This document shows, in pieces, positions 1,041-36,882 of a stretch of DNA of 64,000 bases. The notes beneath the pieces were generated by a model. It had not been told where the DNA came from and made no database searches. It saw only the letters and a list, made by a program, of their open reading frames with translations. The stretch's first letter is position 1; each line of letters opens with the position of its first letter. The DNA is from Adineta ricciae (lineage: Eukaryota > Rotifera > Eurotatoria > Adinetida > Adinetidae). Made by a program: the position numbers and the translations under genes. The DNA lies in contig CAJNOJ010000129.1 in NCBI GenBank assembly GCA_905250025.1, positions 1 through 64,000 on the forward strand, read 5' to 3'.

Positions 1041-4018
1041 TTGTTTACCGTGTCTGTTCACCTTAAGGATATTTCAATAAGTATTCAAAAGAAATAGTCA
1101 TTAGAAAGATCTTTATCATTATAAACATATAAGTTGCTCAAAAAGAAGAAATTAAAGCGAAAATACTGTTAAAAATCAAAGAAAAAAAATCCGATAGAAC
1201 ACGTGGAAAAAAACGATGAAATCTTGGGAATGAAAGTGGATAAAGGGAAAAGGATACGTAGATTATATCTAGGGCATCTAGGAAATCGAACGATGAAAGA
1301 AAAAAATGTATATCTTTACTAGAAAAATGAGTTGATGCATTTTTAATGCGAGGCACTCAATTTGTCCTCATATTAACAAAACTGATTTTTCTCAATGACA
1401 AAGACATGAGTCGAACCGCTAAAAAGCAGTGTCCTAGAATCAGTTTTTGATGCTGAATCAGGAGAAGAAACTTCCAAAGGTAAAACATATTTTTTCAAAA
1501 CCATACGGTCAAATTTCGAGTGAGAATCCCGATTTTTCGAAAACCTCGGTTTTTGTAGTATTTCGAAGATTTCTCCTCGAAGACGACTTTCTATGTCACT
1601 AAATTATACATATTCGGATTCAGCGGATCAAACTGCATCATATCACATAAAAAGATCAACAAAAAAAAATTTGCTCCACTTTTGCCTGTCGCCAACCTTA
1701 CAACAACTTCTGCTTAGATATATACTATCTTTGGATTTAACGAATGCGACTCTCAAGCAGGAAGAATAGCGCAAGATGTAGCATAACTAAGGCTAACATT
1801 TCCTTGCTTAAGATCCACTAATGTTGCTCATTCTTACCGAGACTTCTTTGTAAGCATATTTCGATATGTTTCAACTTTCATACTGATCTCATCATATAAA
1901 TTACTGTTGTTGTATTCCTTCAGTTACCGTTTTCCTTTCAACTGTTTATTGCGTGTTTTATTGATTAACTGACTTTCTAATCCAAAATCTTATCGACCAT
2001 TTCGTTTCTTTTATCGAACGCTTAGATCAAAATCTTTTTGAAGCAACTTTTTCATTTACTTTTTATTCTATCAAAGCTATTTGTACGGTTAGAGTATCTT
2101 TTTTGCTTACTACTATATGTATTTCAATATCTTTGTACTGATTGATGTTCTATTTCTAGATGAAACAATAGTTTCTTACTAAATTTTTTTAACTGTCCGG
2201 CTTTACAGTATATTTTACACGGATATCCAGAAGTACGCAGTTGTCTAGATACTTTTTGGTCTTTATCATAATAAGCATCGTAAATCGTTCTAAATCTTTC
2301 AAGCTTTATATATGTCGTTTTCCAAGCTCGTTGAGGTATGACAAATTGTGACTGTTGCTCAAACGCGTACAAATATAACTAAGTACTCTCATCTCTTAAT
2401 CTTTGTATATCTAGTCTGTTCTATCTGCTTCGCAACGAGTATTGCTTTCTTTTAGGTGGTTTCTTACCAAGTTTCATCGGATCACTACCAAAGAATGGAA
2501 CATTCTCATATGTTATATAGAGAATTAGCGTGTCAACATAGCATATTAACGTGTCTATGTCTGAAAGTGGTATTCCATCGGCAGGTGATTGTATATCATC
2601 GTGTGCATTCATGTGTGATGATGTTGGATAGTCTACAATAATAAAAACACACTGCTCAATATGTTGCAAACCTAGAATTTTAAAATGGTCCAATGACAAT
2701 AAAACAAATTAATGAAAAGAGCGTTGTTTCGTCTCGCTTTGTGCTCATATATTTGGATTTATGTTTATGATACTGTTTGCACCTCTGGTCAGACATACAG
2801 ATAATTCACTGAAGATGCAACCAGTTTGGCTTGGTATTAAGATTTGCTCAGCTACTAACGAAAATATTGCAGCTTTTTTCCTAGACCTTCTGACTGATGA
2901 ACTGTGGAGATCAACTCTCAAATGCATAGCTTCTCAGTTGCTAACTCACCAAAAGTCTTCCCTCAAGCTTCTAACGAAACAAGAGTTTGTCAATTTCTAT
3001 GTCGCGTTGATGAACCGATGCAGCTGTTAAAAGCTCTTCTTTTAATCTGCCTCAAACGTGGCATGGATACGTTGGGAAGTGTAATAAATTAATACAAACA
3101 AAGTGACTCATCCTTAACCTAAGTGTGCCATTGTAAGTACTCATTTTGAAAAGTAAAAAAGATACTCTCTTTGATAGGTTCAGATCGCATTCAAAATGCT
3201 TGCTTCCGTAGATAAAAAATACGCAAGTGATAGTTTCGCCTTCAAAATATTGATAAAGAGTTCGGTCTCAAGTACATCAGAATAAAACAAAATCGAATAC
3301 AGAGCACACCACCAACAAATGAAACGTACTGCTCTCTTTGTGGTAAACATAATACTAGATAAAATGAGACTAGTATTCGCGTTCAAAAAACTCGATTCTC
3401 AATTACAAGTTAATTCGTTTTCTTCCTATTTACTTTTTACGAAAAACGCGTAGAAACGAAGAAGAAAAATCTATTGGTGTTGCTAGGAATATATTGTTGA
3501 TAAATTGAAGATAGAAGGACTTTCCGTATTGTTCAATTTGTATCAAAGCAAAATGTTATCTACAAAAAAGCCAATAAGGATATAAGCACACCTATACTTG
3601 ACAAACGGTAGACCCTCCATCGACGTGTCTGCGCCGCCATACGAGTCGCCAGAAAAAGAGAGAGAGAAAAAGAGAGAGAGATAAATTATAAAACGATCAA
3701 CCAATTAAAAAAATGTTCTGTTTAATCCGACCTCTGGTGTCACCACATTCAACGTGTAATTTATTTCTGAATACATCTTTTAAGTGACATTACAATGAGT
3801 ATAAGGAAACTTTTCACAAGAAATTATTACAAATTTTGTTCATATGTGTGTTTGTGTTCTATCACGCAGATGATTTCTATTGGTGCGGTATCATTAGGTT
3901 CCACCAATGAAAGAATCGAGAATTCAAGCTCATGCATATATTTCATTTTCCAGCAGTTTCGATCTTTTCGACATATTCGATAATATTTCTCATTCGATTC
4001 TCAAACAACTTAATCAAT
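1041..4018. other. Gene-poor stretch, no supported gene
   Basis: Nearly 3 kb with only short open frames on either strand and no recognisable domain. It includes a GA-rich simple repeat at about 3655-3685. A minus-strand frame at 2124-2372 and another at 2421-2699 look slightly peptide-like but have no known motif or convincing splice partners, so they are not called. Confidence 0.5.
3655..3685. repeat. (GA)n-rich simple repeat
   Basis: Runs of GA dinucleotides interrupted by short A runs, in intergenic DNA upstream of the first von Willebrand A-like gene. Confidence 0.7.
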
Positions 4019-5384
4019 ATGTCATTGAACGCTTGTTTTATCGAAGTCGATGCTACTGGAACTTATGTTGCATTTCACCCTGTACAGATTCAACGTGGAC
4101 AAATTATTCCAGAGTACAATTTTATGAGTATATGGTCGGAACCTCTACCAGAAGATTCATCGAAAGTTACTGAAGCGCTGTGTAAGTAGAGCATATCATT
4201 TTCAATCATTTATAGAGATAAAGATTCTAAATAAAAGTCGAATGGCATATTAATTCCAACATATAATGTGTTCTCTTCTCCCATTTCAAGACACTAAACA
4301 GTAATGGCGCGACCGGCGATATAACACAACCCTCAATCTTCAGAGAATCGTTTTTTGCTCATCAAAATCAAATTTTTTTCAAATTCACATCAAACAGGGT
4401 CGTAGGTAGATTTAGTTTTTAAAATTTTAAAATGGTCCTGGAAAAACTTCAGCAACGTTCTGAAATATTTTAGAAACTCAGTACTAAAGTTTTCCAGAAG
4501 CCAAAAGGTTTTCTGTGGATCCGATTGAAACCTGAGGGGCAATACAGGATTTTTTACTTTATCTTAGTTTTTCTAGAAAGTCAAGGCAGCCCCACGCTAT
4601 TCCTCATTTTTGCAAAATTCCTAATTTTTCGCGCAACTTTAAAAAAGAAGCAGTCATCATAGCACCAGAATTTATATATCACTCTAAAAAACTCAAATTT
4701 CGGTTGAGTCGCGCCTCTACCGGTGACAATAAGGCAACTTCTCATAGGCATTATCTACATACATTTTAGAATAGAAGCTTTTTTCTAATCTCATCATCTA
4801 ACGTATATGCAAATTGATTTTTCTCTAATTTATATTTATGTTTTTTTAGTGGAATCTATTGTTAAAGTGTTCAATAGAATGCCAACTACAGCGGTGAGTA
4901 AAATTACCTATTACTAATAAAAAATGCATCTTAATTATCTATAGGACTTTAATGATGGTCGCCATGAAAGACTGGTTATTTGGCTGAATGTTGAGCTTAT
5001 TCCTCCTAATATTAATCTGTTACAACTGTCAGCTGGGTTCATACATTCCGAAATCACATTGGTTTTTGTAACTGAAATTACTCGTGACTTCCAAACTTGG
5101 GATCTTTATCGTGAAACGGCTCGAAACACCGGTATGCACAAATATTCTGGACTGACTTCATATGTTGTTTTCCATTCGTGTTAGGTGGTGAGTATATACT
5201 GCTTCCAAGTGATCCAACGGCTCTGGAACGTGCTATATTATCGGTCATTAATGGTGGAGATACTCTACGACAAGCATTTCTTCATTTACGAACGCAACAA
5301 AGCACAGCAACTCCTAGTCGTCCAACTGATGCCAATGAACAAACACAAGGTGCAGCCAACGACTTGATTTTCCCGTTTGACTGA
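4019..5384 (+). CDS. vWA-like protein, truncated paralogue
   Basis: Four exons are proposed: 4019-4181, 4850-4893, 4945-5131 and 5185-5384, all with GT-AG borders and matching phase, giving about 197 residues. The third exon ends in a hydrophobic strand followed by DFQTWDLYRETARNTGGEYI, which matches the last strands and helices of the vWA-like protein encoded on the other strand at 6854-7619 (both end in LRQAF). The N-terminal metal-site residues and the TDG motif found in the minus-strand copy are not visible, so this may be a shortened or diverged copy. Function is unknown. The first intron is 668 nt, far longer than its neighbours, and seems to hold an inserted element. The start at 4019 is the first ATG in a consistent frame, but upstream exons are possible. 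Confidence 0.55.
4298..4735. repeat. Possible MITE-like insertion in an intron
   Basis: The intron at 4182-4849 is more than ten times the local norm. Within it, a segment starts near a GGCGCGACCGG motif (about 4305) and ends near its inverted counterpart GTCGCGCCTC...ACCGGT (about 4709-4725). The shared GGCGCGAC core in inverted orientation suggests short terminal inverted repeats of a non-autonomous DNA element. No coding capacity is visible inside. Confidence 0.35.
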
Positions 5385-5875
5385 TAACAATGCAAAAAAC
5401 GCTTAAAACTTTCTTAGACTTATTGACACTCAGATTTATAATAAAAAAAAAGAAAAAAAATGATCTGAGCGTACAAAAATATCGTTCTAGATTACATTCG
5501 GTTGTTTCTTTTCAGATAATACAAGCGTTACATATAGTAGCGACTGTTTCGTAGCGCTACACTAAGACAAAATTCCATCCATGCTTCTTACAAACATGAA
5601 CCGACAACCACAGTAACTAATTGGAAGTCGAACTTGCTATTATGAAACAAATAAGTAACGATCCGTTACATTTTCTTCAATGGACAGTCGTATCATTAGT
5701 ATTTAAGTACCCAGCTGTTTGGTCGATCAAAACGAAGAAAAGAATATTACATCGAGAAACTGAAACAACTAATTTTAGTAGAACTATCTGCAACATTTCG
5801 ATCTAATGCCGAGAATATCGACGTAAGTCACCTGTTTTCCACGCTGACATGACGCTCAGTATAGCAATTTATCTG

Positions 5876-6484
5876 TTAGCTTTTTATTTTTGACATTAAA
5901 CGATCTTTAGTCGAAGGACGCTTTGCATCTCGAAAACTTGTCGCTTGGAATTTTAAATGAGGTGTCAATCGGCGAAAGAGTTGAATGACTGTGTCAAGTA
6001 ATACGTCTGCCGGTTGATACGTGCCAGAGTTATTGTTCAGCCAAAATGCGTTGTTTTCATCCCGCCAAAATTCTCCCGCAAATCGAACATCTTTAGAGTT
6101 ATTACATAACGTTGCATGTTTACAAAATAGACGGTGTAATAAATTATGACTTTGAGAAGTTTGTACAATTGAGAATGAACTGCCAGTCAGAACAAAGTTG
6201 TAACGAAATTTAGAATCATGTTTGGATAGTAATTGTTCTAGAAGATCTTCTATTGTTGTGGAGTATGGTAATTGTTCCCAATTATCAATAATTTGTGACT
6301 GCGAAGCAAATATTAATGGTGTAAGGTAGACGATACTTCGTTTAGCTATGTTTTTAGGTGTCATTGAAACGAACGGAGGAAGTTTATCTGGAAGATATTT
6401 GTTAATTAGTTCACTTGAAATGTCATATTTGTAAGCAATATAGTCATCGAATGCTGTAGACGTCAATATGCTTTCTTCGAACAT
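5876..6484 (-). CDS. Uncharacterised 202-residue protein
   Basis: A single uninterrupted frame from ATG at 6484 to the stop at 5876, long for this AT-rich DNA, so probably a real intronless gene. No known family was recognised. The C-terminal half holds a motif reading NNNSGTYQP followed by an amphipathic helix, FAGEF shortly before it, and a basic tail. Motifs of the N-x-S-G-x-Y-x-P type occur in several unrelated effector-like proteins; a link is speculation. No signal peptide or membrane segment is evident. It lies 370 nt downstream of the minus-strand vWA-like gene and faces the + strand paralogue across about 490 nt. Confidence 0.55.
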   Translation of the reverse strand: MFEESILTSTAFDDYIAYKYDISSELINKYLPDKLPPFVSMTPKNIAKRSIVYLTPLIFASQSQIIDNWEQLPYSTTIEDLLEQLLSKHDSKFRYNFVLTGSSFSIVQTSQSHNLLHRLFCKHATLCNNSKDVRFAGEFWRDENNAFWLNNNSGTYQPADVLLDTVIQLFRRLTPHLKFQATSFRDAKRPSTKDRLMSKIKS

Positions 6485-6853: not shown

Positions 6854-7619
6854 TCAAATATGACGGAATGCTTGTCGGAGTGAATAACTATCAGTTAGCA
6901 CCATCGTTGTAACACGTCCTAAATCACGAGCTGCGTCTGCCATCAACATATAACCACCATCTACAAAGTATAGTAAACAGCTTATTCATTACAGTTACTT
7001 TTAAGTATAGGTCATCTCTTTTCTCATACCTGTACTATGAGATAAATCACGAAAAAAATTCCAAGTATCAAAGGCAGGTGTACAAATGAGAACAACGGCT
7101 AAAGTAATACCATACCGACGAAATTCACGGGTTAATTGATCACGATCAGCACCAAAACGAATACTGCCATCGGTAATCATTACAGCTAATCTTTCACAAG
7201 ATTCTTCATGGCCATTCTATGGAAAATATTGAGCCAATTAATTATGCTTCAAAATAGTCTTCTTGTACTCACATTGTGAGACTCTATAGATTCAAAAGCT
7301 TCATTCAAAAGCTCACCTACATATAAGATACAGAATTACAATAAACATGTTTTTGGTAGAAAACGTCGGGATCATGATTTTTCCAATTAGATGCAAAGAA
7401 TTTGATTGATTACTTACAGAATGGTGTGCTTATTTCAGAATTAGGCATTCCTCGTATTATGGCACCAAGTCTTCGTGTAAATTCGTTGATTAATTGCGGA
7501 TTATTATAAGCATCAACAATAATTTGATTGCCATCCAGCTCACCCTGAAATCGATTGAACAACATTCCACTGCTTTCAGCAGAAAGGCTGAATATAATAC
7601 AAGCAATTGAATTGACCAT
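6854..7619 (-). CDS. vWA-like domain protein
   Basis: About four exons on the minus strand, starting at ATG 7619 (MVNSIACIIFSLSAESSG). The fold signature of a von Willebrand A / midasin-type domain is visible in order: a hydrophobic first strand followed by SAESSGML in place of the usual D-x-S-x-S, then STPFGELLNEAF, where the Thr could be the third metal-site ligand, then the strand LAVMITDG with the characteristic TDG, and later GITLAVVLICT and GGYMLMADAARDL. The absence of the first Asp suggests altered or lost metal binding. The protein is only about 220 residues, essentially the bare domain, with no signal peptide. Such domains usually mediate protein binding; the partner is unknown. It is convergent with a paralogue at 4019-5384. 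Confidence 0.6.
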
Positions 7620-9626
7620 TTGAATCTTTAAATAAAGGTTAAAGTGAAAATCTATTAGAAACGGACGATCAGCTATTGAAGCATTCAAAATAATGATTGA
7701 CGTAAAAAAAAAACGTGTACAAGACTTCTTTCTGTTGCGTGAGATACTCGACAGTGACTGTAGATTAAAAAAACAACCACCGAATGTAAAAAATAATCGA
7801 TAAATGTTTTTCCTAATATACAGTGTCTTCTCTCCTTTTTTTTTTCTTTCGTTAAGTTTCTAACAAAGTAATCATGTATAGGACTTTTTTTTTTCTTACG
7901 TCCAGACGATCTCCGACGCAGCCTTTTGCTTGTTCTCTCTTCCCTCTTTTTCTCGTAACCGCGCTCATAATTGTCGTTCTCCTATACGACGGACTGATTC
8001 CGTCGATATAAAGGCTATCTAGTTTTTACTCAGGTGTTAAGAATGCATGTAATGCGAGAAAAAAACACTAGTTTGGATATATTTTATAGAACTATAACTG
8101 TATGTGTGTGAAAGTTGTTACTCACAAACTTCTCAACGGCAGAAATCTGACTTGACATATGTTTATCAAAATACATAAATTTTCTCGTCAATGTTTTACA
8201 TTCTTCAATCTCAATTTCACAATCTTTGCTTCACGACGCTGCTAACCATCGAATGCTCGAATACAGACGATTATTCATTCATCGTATCATCACTACGAAC
8301 AAACTGTTTGATGAAACTAGTTACAAAAAAAATCTTTACGAAGCACATTGATCAATTTGAAATAATTTAGAGTGTCCAGAGAAAAAGTTCTGCTGATCCA
8401 CTAATGAATGCTAAATATTTCATAGTACTCGAAAGATAATGAAGACGACAAAGACTGTCGTATTTTCAATTCAAATTCAATTGCACATCTTGTTGATTGT
8501 ATTTGACACAGTAATGATTAGTAAATAGTTGTAGATGCGAAACTAAAATCAATACTAAATAAACAGAGGAATTTTCAATTTTCCATAACTGTTATAACCT
8601 AGTGCGATATAAAGACTGATTGCTGCCATTAGTCATCGATCAACTATTGTCATTTCCGATTTCTTTTCGGTTTTTGTGTGTTAGTTGACACATACAATCT
8701 TTCGATATACCATTCGTTTATCAATGTATCATTATCTTTGCCTATTGTCCTGTTTGATGCCTTCGGCCGTTCATTGGTTCTATGATACCGTAAATTTGCC
8801 TTGGTGATCGTATTTTCTTTTTGTCTTTCCCCTACTCGTTCTATATTCGCGAAGCAAAAGAAACACACGGAACATTGTTTACGCAGTCGTTTTCTTCCTA
8901 CGATGTACTATTAGCAATAACACAAATAGTGATGCCTTTGCCATCCACAATGAGTTAACAAATACGATCTGTCGAGCATGCATTAATTTTTCTTCCTCGT
9001 CGTGTTACACAACGGAGATTATAATAAACTTTATTTTAACGTCAATAGTACGAAAATCAAGCGAAATGTTATTGATAGAAAAAAGTGACTCGGTGTGTCA
9101 AGCTCTGTTGTCCAATTAATGATGCAAGCTTATATCGTTGAGATGATTGAAAATCTTGTTTCTAAACGATGACAATGTTAAATTTGAACAAACAAAAAGA
9201 AGATCTGTATTTTAAATGCTTACATGCATCGACGTCAGTTGTGAGAACTATGATACAGTGACGTCAATGGGATGTCTTTCTTCTATAGATGCCATTGTCA
9301 TCTTGTCTTTCTTTCTTCCTAGGTAATATTCTAAAGGAATACTTTCACAATATTAACCCCTCTTGATCCTATATATATAGTCGAAGGTTTTATGTTGCTG
9401 CTCGGTTTTCATTCACTTCAAGACGTGATGTGACAATGATCGTGTTGTATCTTGCATGCTATCTATTGGTACATTTATTGGACCAATAGGATATTCTATG
9501 AAAAAGCCATGATTCATGTTAACGTAATTTTTCTGTCGAAATTAGTAACGAATACATAAAAGTTTGTTTTCTAGATTCGTTCTTCTAGTATTGCGTTTAT
9601 AGATGAGGAAATGATATAATTGCATA
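7620..9626. other. Intergenic region without a supported gene
   Basis: Two kilobases of AT-rich DNA between the minus-strand vWA-like gene and Pelota. Pyrimidine-rich runs and scattered short frames are present, but nothing with a recognisable product. It must hold the upstream regions of both flanking genes, which diverge from it. Confidence 0.5.
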
Positions 9627-27100: not shown

Positions 27101-29869
27101 ATATGTTAAACAATTAGGATTTGCTTATGCACACATTTGGGCATGTCCACCAAGCGAAGGCGATGATTATATCTTTCATTGCCATCCAGCTGAACAGCGT
27201 GTGCCAAAACCTAAGCGTTTACAAGAGTGGTACAAAACAATGTTGGATATTGCTGTGAATCAACGAGTCGTCGTCGATTACAAAGTTTGTTTTTGATAGC
27301 ATCGAGATGTTTTTTTTAGTGACAACGGAATATTTGCTCTAGGATATTATGAAAGACTGTACTGATAGTGGTGTGAACAAAGCATCGGATCTTCCATATT
27401 TTGAAGGTGATTTTTGGTCTAGTACAATCGAAGATTTGCTGAAAGAACTCGATACCGAAGAAGAAGATCGAAGAAAATTCGAAGAACTTGAAGCAGTCAA
27501 GGCCTCAGATGATGGCTGTTTCGACGATCCAATCGAGCCAGAAGAGCCAACTGAAGTAAAAGGAAAAGCTAAGAAATCAAGAAAGATTATTCTGTTAAAT
27601 TTTGATAGATATCGGATAAACGTAAATCAGGTGGTGCGACAACACATAAGAAGAAGAATTTCAAGAAAACAGCTGGTCAACGGCGAATAGCACGAAAAAA
27701 TATGTCGAATGGCACAGATCTAATCACGAAAATCTATGCAATGATGGAAAAACACAAAGAAGTAATATAAAATCTTTTGTCAACGGTACATTCGCACAAA
27801 CCCATTTCCATTCATTTATTTAGTCGTTCTTTGTTGTTCGTCTACGCAATCCTATGTCCAATCCAGCAACGTTAACCGATACAGATCCATTGATTCAATG
27901 TGATTTAATGGAATCTCGTGATGCTTTTCTTAACTTTTCTCGTGATAAACATTGTGAATTTTCTTCATTACGTCGTGCCAAATATTCAACCATGGCTTCA
28001 CTAATTGAATTGCATTCGTCAACAGCAGATAAAGTTTCGTATACATGCAATTCGTGTCGACAGCTATGTGATATTCGATATCATTGTACCGTATGCGATG
28101 ATTATGATCTATGTAGTAAATGTTACACAACAGTTAAACATGAACATCGCATGGATCGTACAGATGATATGAGTGAAACACCAGCTAATTCAGATACACC
28201 GTTAACAACTCAACAACAGCGACAAGTCATGATGCAACGACAATTGGAAGCCATACGTCATGCAGCACAATGTCGGAATGCAAATTGTATATTCAAAAAT
28301 TGTGCACCATGTCAAAGATTACTTCAGCATGCGAAGGAATGTACGAAGCCATCAAGAAATCAATGTCCATTATGTCATAAACTTATATCCCCTATTTGGT
28401 ATCATGCGAAAACATGTACTGATCAAAACTGTCCGGTATGTTTTCTTGTTCTTCGTCTTTCTATCGAGTCTATTGAGAAAATATCATTTTATTTAGCTGC
28501 CCTATTGCGCGAGCTTTAAAAATAAACTTCAGCGACAACGTGCAGCAACTATGCAAGCAGATCGACGACGTATCAAAGCAATGCATCGGGCTAAAATGGC
28601 GCCAGGTACATTAGGAGTGATAGTTGTATTAAAAAATGTGACACTGATTTTTTTCGCACATCTAGGGCCATCTCCACTCAATACACAAAGTACGGAGCCT
28701 ACACCTACACAGTATCATCATCCAATGGAGTCCGCTTCGCCAAGCTCATCTGGTAAAATGATGCCCTCAGGTGGTAAAGGCGGTAAACCTGCATCGATGA
28801 GTGGATTAGTGCGAGCTAACCTATCTTCTCAGCAAGTTTCTTCACAACACCCAGTTTATTACAACGGTGGCAAAGGCGGCCCAGGAAGTGGTGCGTATCC
28901 CATGATGATGTCTCATCCACAGCAATCTTCACAGCCATGGATGACACAACAACAACAACAACATCGATATGGATCGCATATGGCCAGTGGTGGTAAACCA
29001 ATGGCTTACACTCAACAAAGAATGCCGTATGGTGGAGATCCGTATATGATGCGACAACAAACCCCGCAAGTGCCATCAACATCTTATCCGTATCCATCGA
29101 ATATAGGTAAATAACTGAGCGCTAATGATGATTCTATATAGAATTTTTCTTAAATAATTTAGCTCCACCAGGCTATCCTCATTCTCAGCTAATGGATCCC
29201 AATGCAATCGCAGCAGCTCGTGCTGGTAAACCTATGTTACCTCAGCAAGTGCCACAGCCACAACAGCAACAAGTACCAACGCGATATCCATTGAACTCCT
29301 ATTATAGCCATCCATCATCAATGTCTTACCAACAACAACAACAGCAGCAGCAGCCGCCGCAAATGCAACAACAACCGCCCCATCGATCACTTTCCCAAGG
29401 CCCAACTCCTACCTATTCGATGCCATCTACTCCAGCGCCGTCAAACGGTGCTAGTTGTAAACCAATTCTTCTCGATTCGCTCGAATCGAAACCTGACGAT
29501 CTCTTAGACGATCCATCGAAACAACAACCACAACAGTCACAGCAACAGCAACAAATGTTCCATTCACTTATTCAATCTCGTTCACGTTCACAGACTCCTT
29601 CTTACTATCCGAATATGTCACCAGCTAATGCTTCTTATTATTCTCCTCAACGTCCAATGACACCCACAGGAGATTATAGTATGGTCCAAGCACGTGGTAT
29701 TCGACCGCCACCTCCTGCTGCCTATGGAACTTTACCAGTTCAGCAGCGTATTCGAACTCCACTTGCTCCGCCTATGTCATCTGTAACGAGTGATCCATCA
29801 ATGGGTATGACACCAAATTCTATGGGACTTCAGTCCACTCCACCTCCACCTTCTGTAACGCCTCGTTAA
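24170..29869 (+). CDS. CREBBP/EP300: CREB-binding protein / p300 histone acetyltransferase
   Basis: More than ten exons encode roughly 1,650 residues. Domains in order: TAZ1 ([15 protein letters not shown] ... [19 protein letters not shown], completed in the next exon), KIX ([19 protein letters not shown]), bromodomain (25840-26200, [14 protein letters not shown]), a RING/PHD-like Cys segment, the acetyltransferase core ([42 protein letters not shown]), ZZ finger ([23 protein letters not shown]), TAZ2 ([12 protein letters not shown] ... CPLCHKLI), and a Gln/Pro-rich tail. The core is nearly identical to human CBP/p300. It acetylates H3K27 and other targets as a coactivator. It is shorter than the ~2,400 residues of vertebrates: the nuclear-receptor region is absent and I could not see the NCBD. 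The start at 24170 ([12 protein letters not shown]) is the first consistent ATG. Confidence 0.96.
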
Positions 29870-30777: not shown

Positions 30778-33700
30778 TTAATTCTCGTCGGAATCGTCCG
30801 CTTTTGCTGCTAAGAAAACGAAAAGTGGAAGATATGCCATTTATAAAGACGATTAGAGACCACTCACTTTTCGAAGTTGTTGTAATTTTATCTAAAACTC
30901 TTTCACCATGAAAATAATCTTTGCGATGTTTACTAGATTTGTTGTTGCATCTACTTTGATGGAAACATGGTATGAGAAAATCTGGGAGATTCGTATGTCG
31001 ATACGCTGCTCGGTGGACAGGATCGTCTAGCTTGTCACAACTTCGACCGTTGTCGCATTTAGGAGCACGATGTGGTTCATGAGTAAGATGAGGTTCTCTT
31101 TCCGAGCAGAGTTCTGAATAACGACATGGGTGCGAATATGTTAAATTATGTTCTGGAACATCGGACGAGTACTGAAGAAGACAGTAGATGCTATCTTTAC
31201 ACGGTTTCAAAGGTGACTTCGGAGTTTTAGCAGAAGCACTCTTTCGTTTGTCTGCCATATGATCATACTCGAGTTTGCTCTTTACCGTCGGTCGATTCGA
31301 ATCATCGTATTCTGTTGTTGAACTGGCACTTGCACTTGTGCTTGCCGTTGATGCGCTCCCGAAACTTTTATCGAATGTTGGGTGCATCGAGGGTTGTCTT
31401 GTAAAATGTATAACTAAATTTTTCATCGGCACTTTATGATTACCAGCACTCACATGAATAAAATTCAATTTAGTCAAATCAAGATCCGATCGACTGAATC
31501 TACAACACATGATACCTCGGCTGTAGAGCGCATTTGGTCCAGCATGTGCAAGAACAACAAAGCCAGTCAAAAGATGAAGCTCTAAGCAATAAGTAAAATA
31601 ATCTGTATTGTTACAACCAGTGTAAAACGTATCTGTTTTCACTGCATATTTCTTTTTGCTCGTGATTATTTCATGTTGAAATGGATGACCAACTGCAAGA
31701 TAAGAAATCGGTTCGTGATATTGATCGTCAATTGCAATAGGTTTTGCGGCAACATAGCATATTAAACAACGTAAATGTGATTGATCCACATCTAGATCAA
31801 TCTTTTCACTTGACAACGTTAACATCATATCACCGTGTAAAGCTTTCCAGTAGATATGAGTTATATTATCTTTTGATGGATGAGCCTCTTCGAAATTATA
31901 TTGTGCGTACGCTTGCGAAATTGTGAGAGGTAAAACATAGTGTTCATCGAGATTGGTAGAAGGTATTGTCATTGTTATACCTCTCAGATAGCTCAATGCT
32001 AAAGAAGGAGTATACTTTTTATACCGCTGTAATATCGTTCTTACAACTGCCTCTTGGTAATCAGCTCGTGCTTTCGAGCTTGGCGTCGCCCCGAATGTTC
32101 CTTTATCAGGCGTTAGTTCAACTTTGTGGTCTGCAATAGTAATGCGATCGCTAAATACGGCCTCAACGGCTCTTCTTGCATCCTCACTAAGATGATCAAA
32201 AAGACTCCTTGGCATATAGATATGATCAATATAGTCTAAAGGAATCAGTTGAGGTAGATGTGCTTCGATCGTTTGATGAGAATCAACTGCAAGCCATCGT
32301 TGAAGTATTTGATCAAGAGTAATATCCATTGATTTCAAGTTGAATTGTGAACTAGTGAGTGCCATCAATTCCAGTGCTGCAGCATGCTCATAGCCTGGCA
32401 CTCCAGCATGTAATTTAGTCGCATGATAATGTTTCACTCGTTCGGCAGTAGAACCCGGATCCTTACCCAACCATGGTCGCATTGTATAGGCTCTACCGCT
32501 AACAAACGACGTAGCTGCTTGCATAGAGAAATTTGCATCACAATGATGCAAAATCTCTCGTTTAAAGATGATAATTATATCACCGTAATAATGACCCATA
32601 TGTGGTCCAAGGATACTGAAAACAAGTTTATCAGTACCTAACGCTTTGTCGGAGGCGTAACCAATACCGGCGGGATCGGAATGAAGTTTGATAGATGCTC
32701 GTGCAATATCAATTGCTTTTGAGCGTAATGCTCTCATGTCATTCGATGGAATTGTACCAGATAATTTATTCTCTTTCTTTCTTACTGTATCCTCAAAGGA
32801 TGATGCGACGAATATTTCCGGATTTGCAGATTTCGATAGAAATCCTTGCTTGCCAAATTCGAGACAAACTAACGCAGTAACATATTTTCTTGCATCTTCT
32901 TCATATGTTTTGATTTTCAAAGCATCAATACGTCTGATTCGACTGTGATGTAAGACGGAATTGGCAACGAACGTTGGATCCTTCAAGTGCTCCATGTATT
33001 CACGACTCATTACATGGCCATGGAGAAGTATAGACTCAAATATAACTAAGTTACATCGATGGATGGGTTGTACCGTACGTATCCAATCAACAATTTCATC
33101 AGGTATTATGCCTGACGGTAAAGGCTTCCAATTCTGTTTGCTAACAAATCGACTAACACATTCTACGTTGTTCCTGTGGTTCTGAACAAAATCTACTTGT
33201 TTATTCGTACCATAGTATCTTACAACGCCAGGCTCATGTATGATATGATGACGAAATTGAAGTCTATGCTCAAGTTTATCCGGCTCCCGGCAGTCGTCAC
33301 GGTATGGACATAACGGTCGAATATCAGGAATATGCGGGTGTGTCAATGTATTAATGTGTTCTTCGTCGGAAACCATACTGCATTTTTCACCGTATGGACA
33401 CACTTGACGTGCAATATGAATTGATCTAGATTGATGTAATTGTGTTTGATCAAGACAGTTTCGTCCAAGTTTGCAAACATGAGCAAAATTCAGACAATGT
33501 TGTTGGATGACTGTTGAAAGACTTCGATTATTTTTTGATTCACAGAGAGCACTATGCATTGGACATTCGAATGGAGTATGTGGACACGGAGGTGGAAATG
33601 GATGCTGAAAATCTTCGAAATGACTCTTGTCATGGAATAAAGCACAGTTGTTTCCGTATGGACAATATGGAGCAAAATGTCGATATTGATCACAATGTTC

Positions 33701-34154
33701 TTTAACTTCCTTCAGATAATCAATACATTTATGACTCTGCGGGCAAAGTGGTAAGTGTCGATACATTTTCAAATGATCTTCTGTTTGTTTCTTGCACCGA
33801 CCTCCATCAGGACAAAAGGATGGATGTTCATATTCGCGACAATGATTCTTGTCGCCGATCTGGTCACATTTACCACCCTTCCGACATTGACTTTGGCTTG
33901 ACGACTTGCTTGCGGTAGTTCCATCATCTTTAGATTTCTATCAATTAAGACGAATTTTGTCAGTAGAAAGCACTTATATTTACTTTCATTGAGAAGAAAA
34001 TACTTTTATGAAAATTTACCTTCGAAGAACTCGCTGATTTCGATGCGAGCAAATTTTCTAGACATGCACGGTGAAATGTAACGCCCGACGCTGTCGTTAC
34101 CTCCTGATCGTCATCTCCATGCAAGGGCTGATTACATGACGAACAAATTGACAT
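30778..34154 (-). CDS. PBZ-like zinc-finger array protein with an unrecognised central domain
   Basis: Starting at ATG 34154, the first exons give a half-LIM-like CSSCNQPL ... HRAC site and a Ser/Lys linker; a single large exon then runs from about 33950, with a short last exon after a 50-60 nt intron near 30840, ending ADDSDEN. About seven CCHH fingers of the form C-x5-C-x5..9-H-x5-H crowd the first 300 residues (for example CPYGNNCALFHDKSHFEDFQH) and four more lie near the C-terminus (for example CDNGRSCDKLDDPVHRAAYRH). The pattern CPYGxxC...H....H is that of the poly(ADP-ribose)-binding PBZ finger of APLF and CHFR. The ~600-residue middle has conserved-looking strands (FVSGRAYTMRPWLG, GDIIIIFKREIL) but matches no family I know. 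The predicted role is binding poly(ADP-ribose) or nucleic acid; catalysis is unproven. Confidence 0.75.
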
Positions 34155-34662: not shown

Positions 34663-35392
34663 TCATAAGAAATTAAAAATTCTATTCAAGAATTCTTTCA
34701 TATAAGTCATATTTAAAAAAGATTTCAGATGGCTTTGAATCGATTTTGCGTCGTGAATTGTCTCCGTTACTGGTTTTAGTAGATCTTGTCTTTCTACCAT
34801 GGCGTCTATCAGCCATCCCAATCCTTCACGAACACCTTCACCACGAATTGCGCACGTTGGATGTAAATGCCATTTTTTAATCCCATCCAACTTGACTAAA
34901 TTGAGTTTTACCTTTAACTCGTCCAGTGTCATTGCAGTTGGCAGATCTTGTTTATTAGCAAGAATGAGGAAAGGTTTGGTGCGTAATCCCTCTTCATTGG
35001 CGAGCTGATGCAGTTCATTACATGTTTCTTCAATCGTTGTTCGATCACTGGAATCGACTACATAGATTATTCCTGTCATTCGTCGATAATACGCTCGCTG
35101 TAATGCGCGACCTGCTGAACGTCCGCCTTCGTCGAGTAAAATAACTGAGTTATTGTTTATAGGAACAATCTGGATTTCTAAGCCCATCGTGTATAAGGAA
35201 TCATGTTGATTTTCAAGTTTTCTGGGAAAGAAGACTACGGAAGTTTTACCTAAATATAAAAGTAGCGTAAATGAATACTAGACTGCCAGAAATGAGCAGT
35301 TCGTTACCAGCTGAATGCGCTCCCGCTATGAATACCATGAATGATGAACGTTTAGAATCGGGTTCAGTTCGTTTGTTATGTGAAGAAGCCAT
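34663..35392 (-). CDS. Divergent Arf/Arl-type small GTPase
   Basis: Two or three exons from ATG 35392. The P-loop GAHSAGKT is split by an intron after the second Gly codon's first base. Then YTMGLEIQIV takes the place of the switch I PTIGFN, LLDEGGRSAGRAL the place of WDVGGQ, IIYVVDSSDR, NKQD (guanine specificity) and CAIRGEGVREGLGWLIDAM, the Arf-family G5 region. The protein is therefore an Arf-family GTPase but two features are odd: the catalytic Gln after DxGG is Arg, and residue 2 is Ala, so no N-myristoylation. A hydrophilic C-terminal extension of about 35 residues follows the G domain. It may bind GTP but hydrolyse it poorly. The exact subfamily is not clear. Confidence 0.75.
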
Positions 35393-35704: not shown

Positions 35705-36654
35705 TCACCAGTACTTGTATGGGTACTGAATAGCACCGTACCATAAATGTTTTCGATGTGGATATCTGTGGCTTTGTAGATGAGAACGATCATGAGAGCT
35801 ATATGAGGGATCATCAAACTGCGATCGATGATGTGATGCTCTGTGATGATCACGATGCCATTGATGATCAGGTGCCTCTAAAGAATTTTCAGAGATTAAA
35901 TATGAAACTAATTATTTGATCATAACTAACTGATCATTGGATAAAAACTCATGCCATTTGGCCAAATATTCGCATTGAGATAAATAGGTTCATTACAATT
36001 ACTATGGATGTAAGGTAATTGTTCATTGTCTGAACCTCGCTGTACATCGATAGCAACATGTTTCAGTACGGTTTCTATTTCAATATTTGGCATTGCAAGA
36101 CGCGGAAGTAAATGATGCGTATACACACTGTTTCGAAGGTCAGATCTGGCTATAGATGATGCACCTGCTGCACATCCATAAGCAATAATAGTTGATGGTG
36201 GACCTTTCATAGGTGCAAGACCATCTCGTAATTTTGGACGTCGATCGAAAAATGAGTTCTGTCTAACTGCGTCTGAAATGCTGACACGTGTCCGACAGCA
36301 ATCTAGGATGACGATGACAACTCGCGGCCGGTTTTGATGCAACTGTTGGATTACGCTTTGAGCGTCGGTGCAGTAAGGATTGGAAAAATCTATAGGTAAT
36401 AGAAGATTCTTTCCATCAAATTGAGCGCCATGACCAGAATAGTAGAAGACAACGATAGAACCTGGTCGAACCGAGCGTGCGAATTTATAGACTGTTGAGT
36501 CCATTTGCTCCTCGGTGAGATCGATTCCTACCCGGACTTGAAAACCAACCGATCGCAAGGATCTAGCTGTGTCTCTTGCGTCATGAGCACATGGTGTTAG
36601 GTTTCCTTCTTCGTATCTGACATTTCCTATAGCCAGCGCTTGTTTTGGGTTCAT
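35705..36654 (-). CDS. Caspase-like peptidase (C14 family) with intact dyad
   Basis: Two exons (36654-35931 and 35877-35705) give about 299 residues. The p20-type fold is clear: QALAIGNVRYEEG, then ARDTARSLRSVGFQV, IVVFYYSGHGAQFDGKNLLLP with the catalytic His, and VVIVILDCCRTR with the catalytic Cys. It resembles the bacterial/eukaryotic caspase-domain proteins of C14 rather than classical animal caspases: there is no CARD/DED prodomain and no QACxG. After the intron comes a His-rich tail with about a dozen His residues, ending YKYW. The start at 36654 is the first ATG in frame. It faces a paralogue on the + strand about 870 nt away. Cleavage preference cannot be read off. Confidence 0.85.
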
Positions 36655-36882
36655 TGTAATGGCGCGCAAAAACAAAACTTCAAGCGGAAATCTAGAAATA
36701 CTGACGTAATTTTTTACGAAAAGTATGAAACTTTAGAAATGAATTTGTCAAAAAAATAAGTTGTTGTTATTCCTGTAGGGAAAAGAATGCTGTGGTCGAA
36801 ATTAATCATAGCATATGGTTGATGTCGGAAGGTAAAAGCATGACTGTGGAGAAAAATAGATCGATGTTACTCATTTTTTCTT

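Follow-up and report, generated by a model that had tools for sequence, protein, structure and literature searches.

How is a long predicted rotifer protein to be understood in which arrays of zinc-finger motifs flank a large core at both ends, and do its fingers belong to poly(ADP-ribose) (PAR) metabolism? The question is raised by a gene within the window, i.e. the whole 64,000-nt stretch of Adineta ricciae contig CAJNOJ010000129.1 (positions 1–64,000) analysed here. The gene runs on the minus strand from an ATG at 34154 to a stop codon ending at 30778, exactly the limits given in the initial annotation, and encodes 1079 aa in three exons whose intervening introns were predicted from sequence alone. 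Exon 1 (34020–34154, minus strand, as are all features of the gene) encodes the N-terminal half of a degenerate RING-H2 finger (C-x2-C ... F-H-x2-C). It is followed by a predicted GT-AG intron of 82 nt (33938–34019) and by exon 2 (30868–33937), whose reading frame is open from 33937 to beyond 30868 and which holds an N-terminal array of eight PBZ-like CCHH fingers (aa 63–275; 33248–33886), a core of about 640 aa (aa 284–925; 31298–33223) and a C-terminal array of four PBZ-like fingers (aa 958–1055; 30908–31201). A second predicted GT-AG intron (58 nt, 30810–30867) precedes exon 3 (30778–30809), which supplies a short acidic tail and the stop codon. The arrangement described at the outset, finger arrays at both ends of one long protein, is thus borne out as eight plus four fingers around the core, the count rising from about eleven to 12; the acidic tail is present and confined to the last few residues (ADDSDEN).

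The first cysteines (C1) of the 12 fingers are located at aa 63, 87, 110, 137, 163, 200, 225 and 255 in the N-terminal array and at aa 958, 983, 1006 and 1036 in the C-terminal array. The strict pattern C-x5-C-x6-9-H-x5-H occurs nine times in the protein, whereas 5000 residue shuffles yielded it 0.023 times on average and never more than twice, which rules out chance and agrees with the clustered motifs reported earlier; the remark that many of them start with CPYG was overstated, since CPYG is present in two of the 12 fingers (aa 137 and 225). Eleven of the 12 have the four CCHH ligands of PBZ (PF10283) together with H-x5-H, whereas finger 10 (aa 983), the second of the C-terminal array, departs from the pattern and retains three conserved ligands only. 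Among the 11 four-ligand fingers, the cysteines are spaced C-x5-C in ten and C-x6-C in one, the gap between C2 and the first histidine is 6–7 residues in eight and 9, 10 and 21 in the other three, and the aromatic residue of H-x3-[FY]-x-H is kept in nine, compared with an F+Y content of 7.8% in the protein. Across an alignment of 18 members, which includes the window gene and some near-duplicate rows, none of the 32 zinc ligands of the N-terminal array varies; of the 44 columns that are invariant in this alignment, 33 are C or H. In the C-terminal array (16 rows, one of them incomplete there), 13 of the 15 ligand columns are invariant and two near-invariant. The two arrays are homologous to each other (hhalign, 97.5%). 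Finger 4 (33602–33664, aa 137–157) carries an extra invariant histidine four residues past C2, giving C-x5-C-x3-H as in CCCH fingers.

The kinship of the fingers is most apparent at the level of the family. Pfam PBZ matches at E≤1 were obtained for 14 of the 18 N-terminal arrays (best 2.4e-10) and 13 of the 16 C-terminal arrays (best 1e-7), and any other Pfam family matched the arrays of at most three members. One relative (locus L023) reached 49.5 bits with PBZ; its other finger, of RanBP2 type, narrowly misses the cut-off of that family. When the profile of the N-terminal array was compared with solved structures, the PBZs of APLF matched best, at E 0.0073 and 0.01. The window's own arrays remain below the curated PBZ cut-off of 22.7 bits, the N-terminal one without a match at E≤1 and the C-terminal one at 10.2 bits, and exon 2 of the window gene matched no Pfam family at E≤10. 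Scored singly with a local PBZ model, finger 4 obtained 16.4 bits and finger 7 14.3, fingers 1, 11 and 12 fell at 8–11, and none of the remaining seven exceeded 6.6; shuffling the whole protein 200 times gave 7.9 bits at best. The PBZ identity first proposed is therefore upheld as a relationship of the family, and in the window protein itself fingers 4 and 7 alone score well clear of the shuffled sequences. As for an unrelated CCHH or CCCH class, which had been considered from the start, the CCCH matches were weak and each appeared in at most three of the 18 members; judged by profile similarity, PBZ is the best-supported family for these fingers.

According to the accessible text of a review (PMC4030884), PBZ fingers conform to [K/R]xxCx[F/Y]GxxCxbb...Hxxx[F/Y]xH, and the ADP-ribose contacts of APLF are Y381, Y386 and R387 (PMC6264785). 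The corresponding triad, scored as Y at C1+2, Y at C2+1 and R at C2+2 (aromatic/aromatic/basic, with H counted as aromatic), is found in none of the 12 window fingers and in one of 208 fingers of the family, the window included. By comparison, among 20 Pfam PBZ matches in 13 other regions of the same genome, picked by PBZ score and hence biased towards the triad motif, 18 have the triad, and the remaining two begin mid-finger and show its CYR part; a stricter pattern caught 16 of these PBZs, all 16 with the triad. These sequences show that the genome keeps recognizable canonical PBZs beside the finger class of the window gene. With the triad missing, the link of the window protein to PAR rests on the company of domains in its relatives and not on finger residues. 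The initial annotation had proposed high-avidity binding of PAR or nucleic acid. A PAR context finds support in the domain of poly(ADP-ribose) glycohydrolase (PARG), the enzyme that removes PAR, itself a signal of DNA damage: this domain lies just upstream in 16 of 27 long match rows. High-avidity reading of PAR is not borne out, since the window's arrays stay below the cut-off and the triad is absent.

This domain company was found by searching the genome (130 Mb, 1033 contigs) with the window protein, which yielded at least 55 matches at E≤0.001. At least 27 of them, the window included, are long match rows covering ≥600 of 1029 query residues; these numbers are lower bounds, as 45 of 58 candidates were scored, and the 27 long rows include homologous and tandem copies and thus represent fewer distinct genes. 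In 16 of the 27, a match to PF10021 (microbial-type PARG) is located upstream on the same strand, at a distance of at most 3 kb; this figure includes two rows (C98:305531 and C137:81237) that are separated from their PARG by another match piece, the distances being 1.5 and 2.8 kb. The other 11, the window gene among them, have no PARG upstream. Five long relatives that were scanned all contain PF10021 (E 4.5e-6 to 8.9e-22). Genome-wide there are 33 PF10021 matches at E≤0.01, 21 of them upstream of a family match by no more than 3 kb; none of the 33 lies at the window gene or elsewhere on contig C129. Of the 14 fetched frames with a PARG match, 13 retain an intact catalytic loop GGG-x7-QEE, and a profile of these 13 matched the structures of TcPARG (3sig; 6e-19), where the motif falls into alignment, and DrPARG (5zdb; about 7e-18). 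The domain that aligns with the catalytic loop of these known enzymes in the relatives is thus missing in the window gene. As to a bacterial origin of this PARG, the only two loci found, with 36 and 34% identity and both from MAGs, are too little for a claim. In the fourteenth frame (L024, 2334–7739, plus strand) the PARG is recognizable and the frame otherwise open, but the GGG...QEE loop is broken, and this copy is likely inactive. Separate microbial-type PARG matches occur in short frames on contigs C205 and C142 (up to 150 bits, above the family domains); on C142, two of the three contain a stop. The genome also gave 41 matches to the PARP catalytic domain (PF00644) at E≤1e-10, which are pieces rather than genes, several with internal stops, so that PAR writers may be numerous too.

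The beginning of the window protein points to the same relatives. It had been described as half of a LIM domain, but it proves to be half of a RING, aligning to complete RINGs upstream of relatives. Exon 1 keeps four of the eight RING-H2 ligands; it scores 23.6 bits with Prok-RING, under the cut-off, and 17.2 bits with LIM over half the profile, for a cut-off of 22.9 bits. A search with exon 1 revealed a similar piece upstream in seven of 18 fetched loci at E≤0.01, and the four such pieces that were scanned are all RING fingers (zf-RING_2, E 3e-8 to 8e-28). At locus L021, four tandem RINGs, identified by a Pfam scan, share one frame (7463–8335, minus strand) upstream of a PARG and PBZ-like frame. 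Four tandem RING-like fingers also lie in one frame (1337–2209, plus strand) upstream of a PARG and PBZ-like frame at locus L022. From position and strand, we infer that the RING exons are spliced to the PARG frames. A combination of RING and PBZ is known from CHFR, a ubiquitin ligase of FHA-RING-PBZ architecture which is not known to have a PARG. CHFR resembles the long relatives in having both domains in one protein, and differs from the window gene, where half of the RING is lost and FHA was not seen.

Taken together, the sequence comparisons identify the window gene as a member of a large family whose long members are built as RING(s), microbial-type PARG, PBZ-like array, family-specific core and PBZ-like array, the window gene itself lacking PARG and a complete RING in the predicted model. 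The half-RING form is shared with the copies on contigs C74 and C217, and is therefore older than their split. In a core tree of 18 rows, with midpoint rooting only, the window, C74 and C217 copies form one clade (99/99), and two sister pairs each join a copy with PARG and one without it (L024/L036 and L025/L037, both 100/100). These mixed pairs, together with the half RING, favour repeated loss of PARG as the probable history of the family; assembly or frame breaks may lie behind some of the other PARG-less rows.

A gene lacking one domain and half of another could be a decaying, functionless copy of a PARG gene, an explanation that the absence of PARG and the half RING would fit. The comparison with its closest copy, on contig C74 and 94% identical (the other 25 long rows are 38–61% identical, 14 of them in open frames of 1600–2000 aa), makes this very improbable. 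The two frames adjoining the C74 copy (locus L032) carry Arf and caspase Pfam domains, as do the frames directly upstream of the window gene, an Arf-family GTPase at 34663–35274 and a caspase-domain frame at 35926–36729 (both minus strand), and the C74 copy was therefore taken as the collinear partner. Between the partners, exon 2 shows a dN/dS of 0.19 overall, with 0.11 for the N-terminal fingers, 0.21 for the core and 0.12 for the C-terminal fingers, and none of 47 ligands is changed. These values, to which the frame kept open over three exons may be added, argue that the window gene is not a relic, and on this estimate it is under purifying selection.

The core, of which about 600 residues had been noted as unknown, has 49 positions invariant in 18 rows, many of them polar, and its roughly 640 residues are without a match in anything searched: no match recurred among members in the sequences of solved structures (PDB), Pfam or NCBIfam, the window exon gave nothing consistent in PHROGs, and tblastn of the window core against plasmids and phages gave no match. 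A pattern-based scan for the core returned 52 candidate stretches in prokaryote genomes and 11 in viral contigs, none of which was confirmed. A degenerate copy of PARG was rejected as its origin (hhalign probability 0.1%). No PARP profile matched any of the 18 cores at E≤1 when a PARP or ADP-ribosyltransferase identity was considered, and none of the 41 PF00644 matches at E≤1e-10 falls on a core locus. Its E-A-H and Y-G-D motifs may resemble those of DUF3626 (PF12294); PF12294 found nothing in this genome, nothing in 296 genomes belonging to one phylum and nothing in the control set either, and the resemblance plays no part in our reading. At locus L038, a single frame (1485–6290, minus strand) contains two cores in tandem, the first complete and the other partial.

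As the best single account, to which we give about an even chance, the window protein would be a non-catalytic zinc-finger scaffold in PAR metabolism, acting within this family. Its 12 fingers would offer a multivalent surface for PAR, PARylated partners or adjoining nucleic acid, the target would be held through many weak contacts, and the core would bring a second activity or a partner. Without PARG, the target might be held or shielded rather than stripped, or the protein might compete with those sisters that have PARG. Of all the steps in this proposal, direct contact between the fingers and PAR is the least secure, because the APLF contact residues are absent, and for the same reason the binding of nucleic acid or of partners is to be taken as a serious rival. 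Fingers turned from PAR to nucleic acid, with the CCHH array binding RNA or ssDNA and the core as effector, would be in keeping with the family-wide loss of the triad beside frozen zinc ligands, with the structural nearness of PBZs to ssRNA-binding C3H1 tandem fingers noted in the accessible text of PMC4030884, and with the CCCH matches seen in a few members; those matches are weak and confined to at most three of 18 members each, however, and PARG in the same polypeptides of relatives speaks for PAR company, so that we consider this alternative somewhat unlikely. The order of the 12 finger positions is kept across members and most residues between the ligands vary, as would suit zinc knuckles that space the core or serve as a protein–protein scaffold with no polymer ligand. 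We regard a mainly structural array as unlikely in view of the PBZ profile kinship and the number of fingers, which suggest an inherited binding role.

For the scaffold reading, and more speculatively, the core could be a new enzymatic or sensing domain acting on ADP-ribose marks or on ends labelled by them. The family would then unite a ubiquitin ligase, a PAR eraser, a multivalent finger array and a new activity within a single chain, the window gene keeping the fingers and the new activity; we consider this extension rather doubtful.

The combination of PARG and PBZ in a rotifer is already known, and the PARG-less form would be a variant of it. In the accessible text of PMC4245714, which cites Slade et al. 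2011, several PBZ repeats accompany a microbial-type PARG in Adineta vaga, a combination that the long relatives of the window gene share and the window gene itself does not; that text does not mention the core, RING or copy number. Similarly, rotifers are listed among the eukaryotes with bacterial-type PARG in the available part of PMC6445106. Across the literature listed, which partly comprises the best entries of longer lists and leaves most subscription papers outside, the portions available do not describe the core, the RING, the copy number or the PARG-less form. The tandem PBZs of APLF (2kuo, 2kqb), the best profile matches in the PDB, share CCHH ligands and the H-x3-[FY]-x-H half with the window fingers, but number two rather than twelve and have the ADP-ribose-contact triad that the window fingers lack. 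In a bdelloid, strong induction of PARP genes follows radiation and drying (PMC10809525); the accessible texts of two transcriptome papers, PMC10809525 and PMC12220480, deal with the expression of PARP, and neither PARG nor PBZ occurs in them as a word. If our reading is correct, one animal genome would hold many genes combining RING, PARG and long PBZ-like arrays, plus PARG-less forms, and the family would provide concrete candidates for the reading and removal of PAR in such an animal. It also raises the question of whether binding of PAR is still possible for PBZ-type fingers that lack the contact residues of APLF.

On the other side of the window gene, its convergent neighbour (27824–28516, plus strand) encodes ZZ and TAZ zinc fingers, a pair known from CBP/p300, followed by glutamine-rich frames up to 29869.
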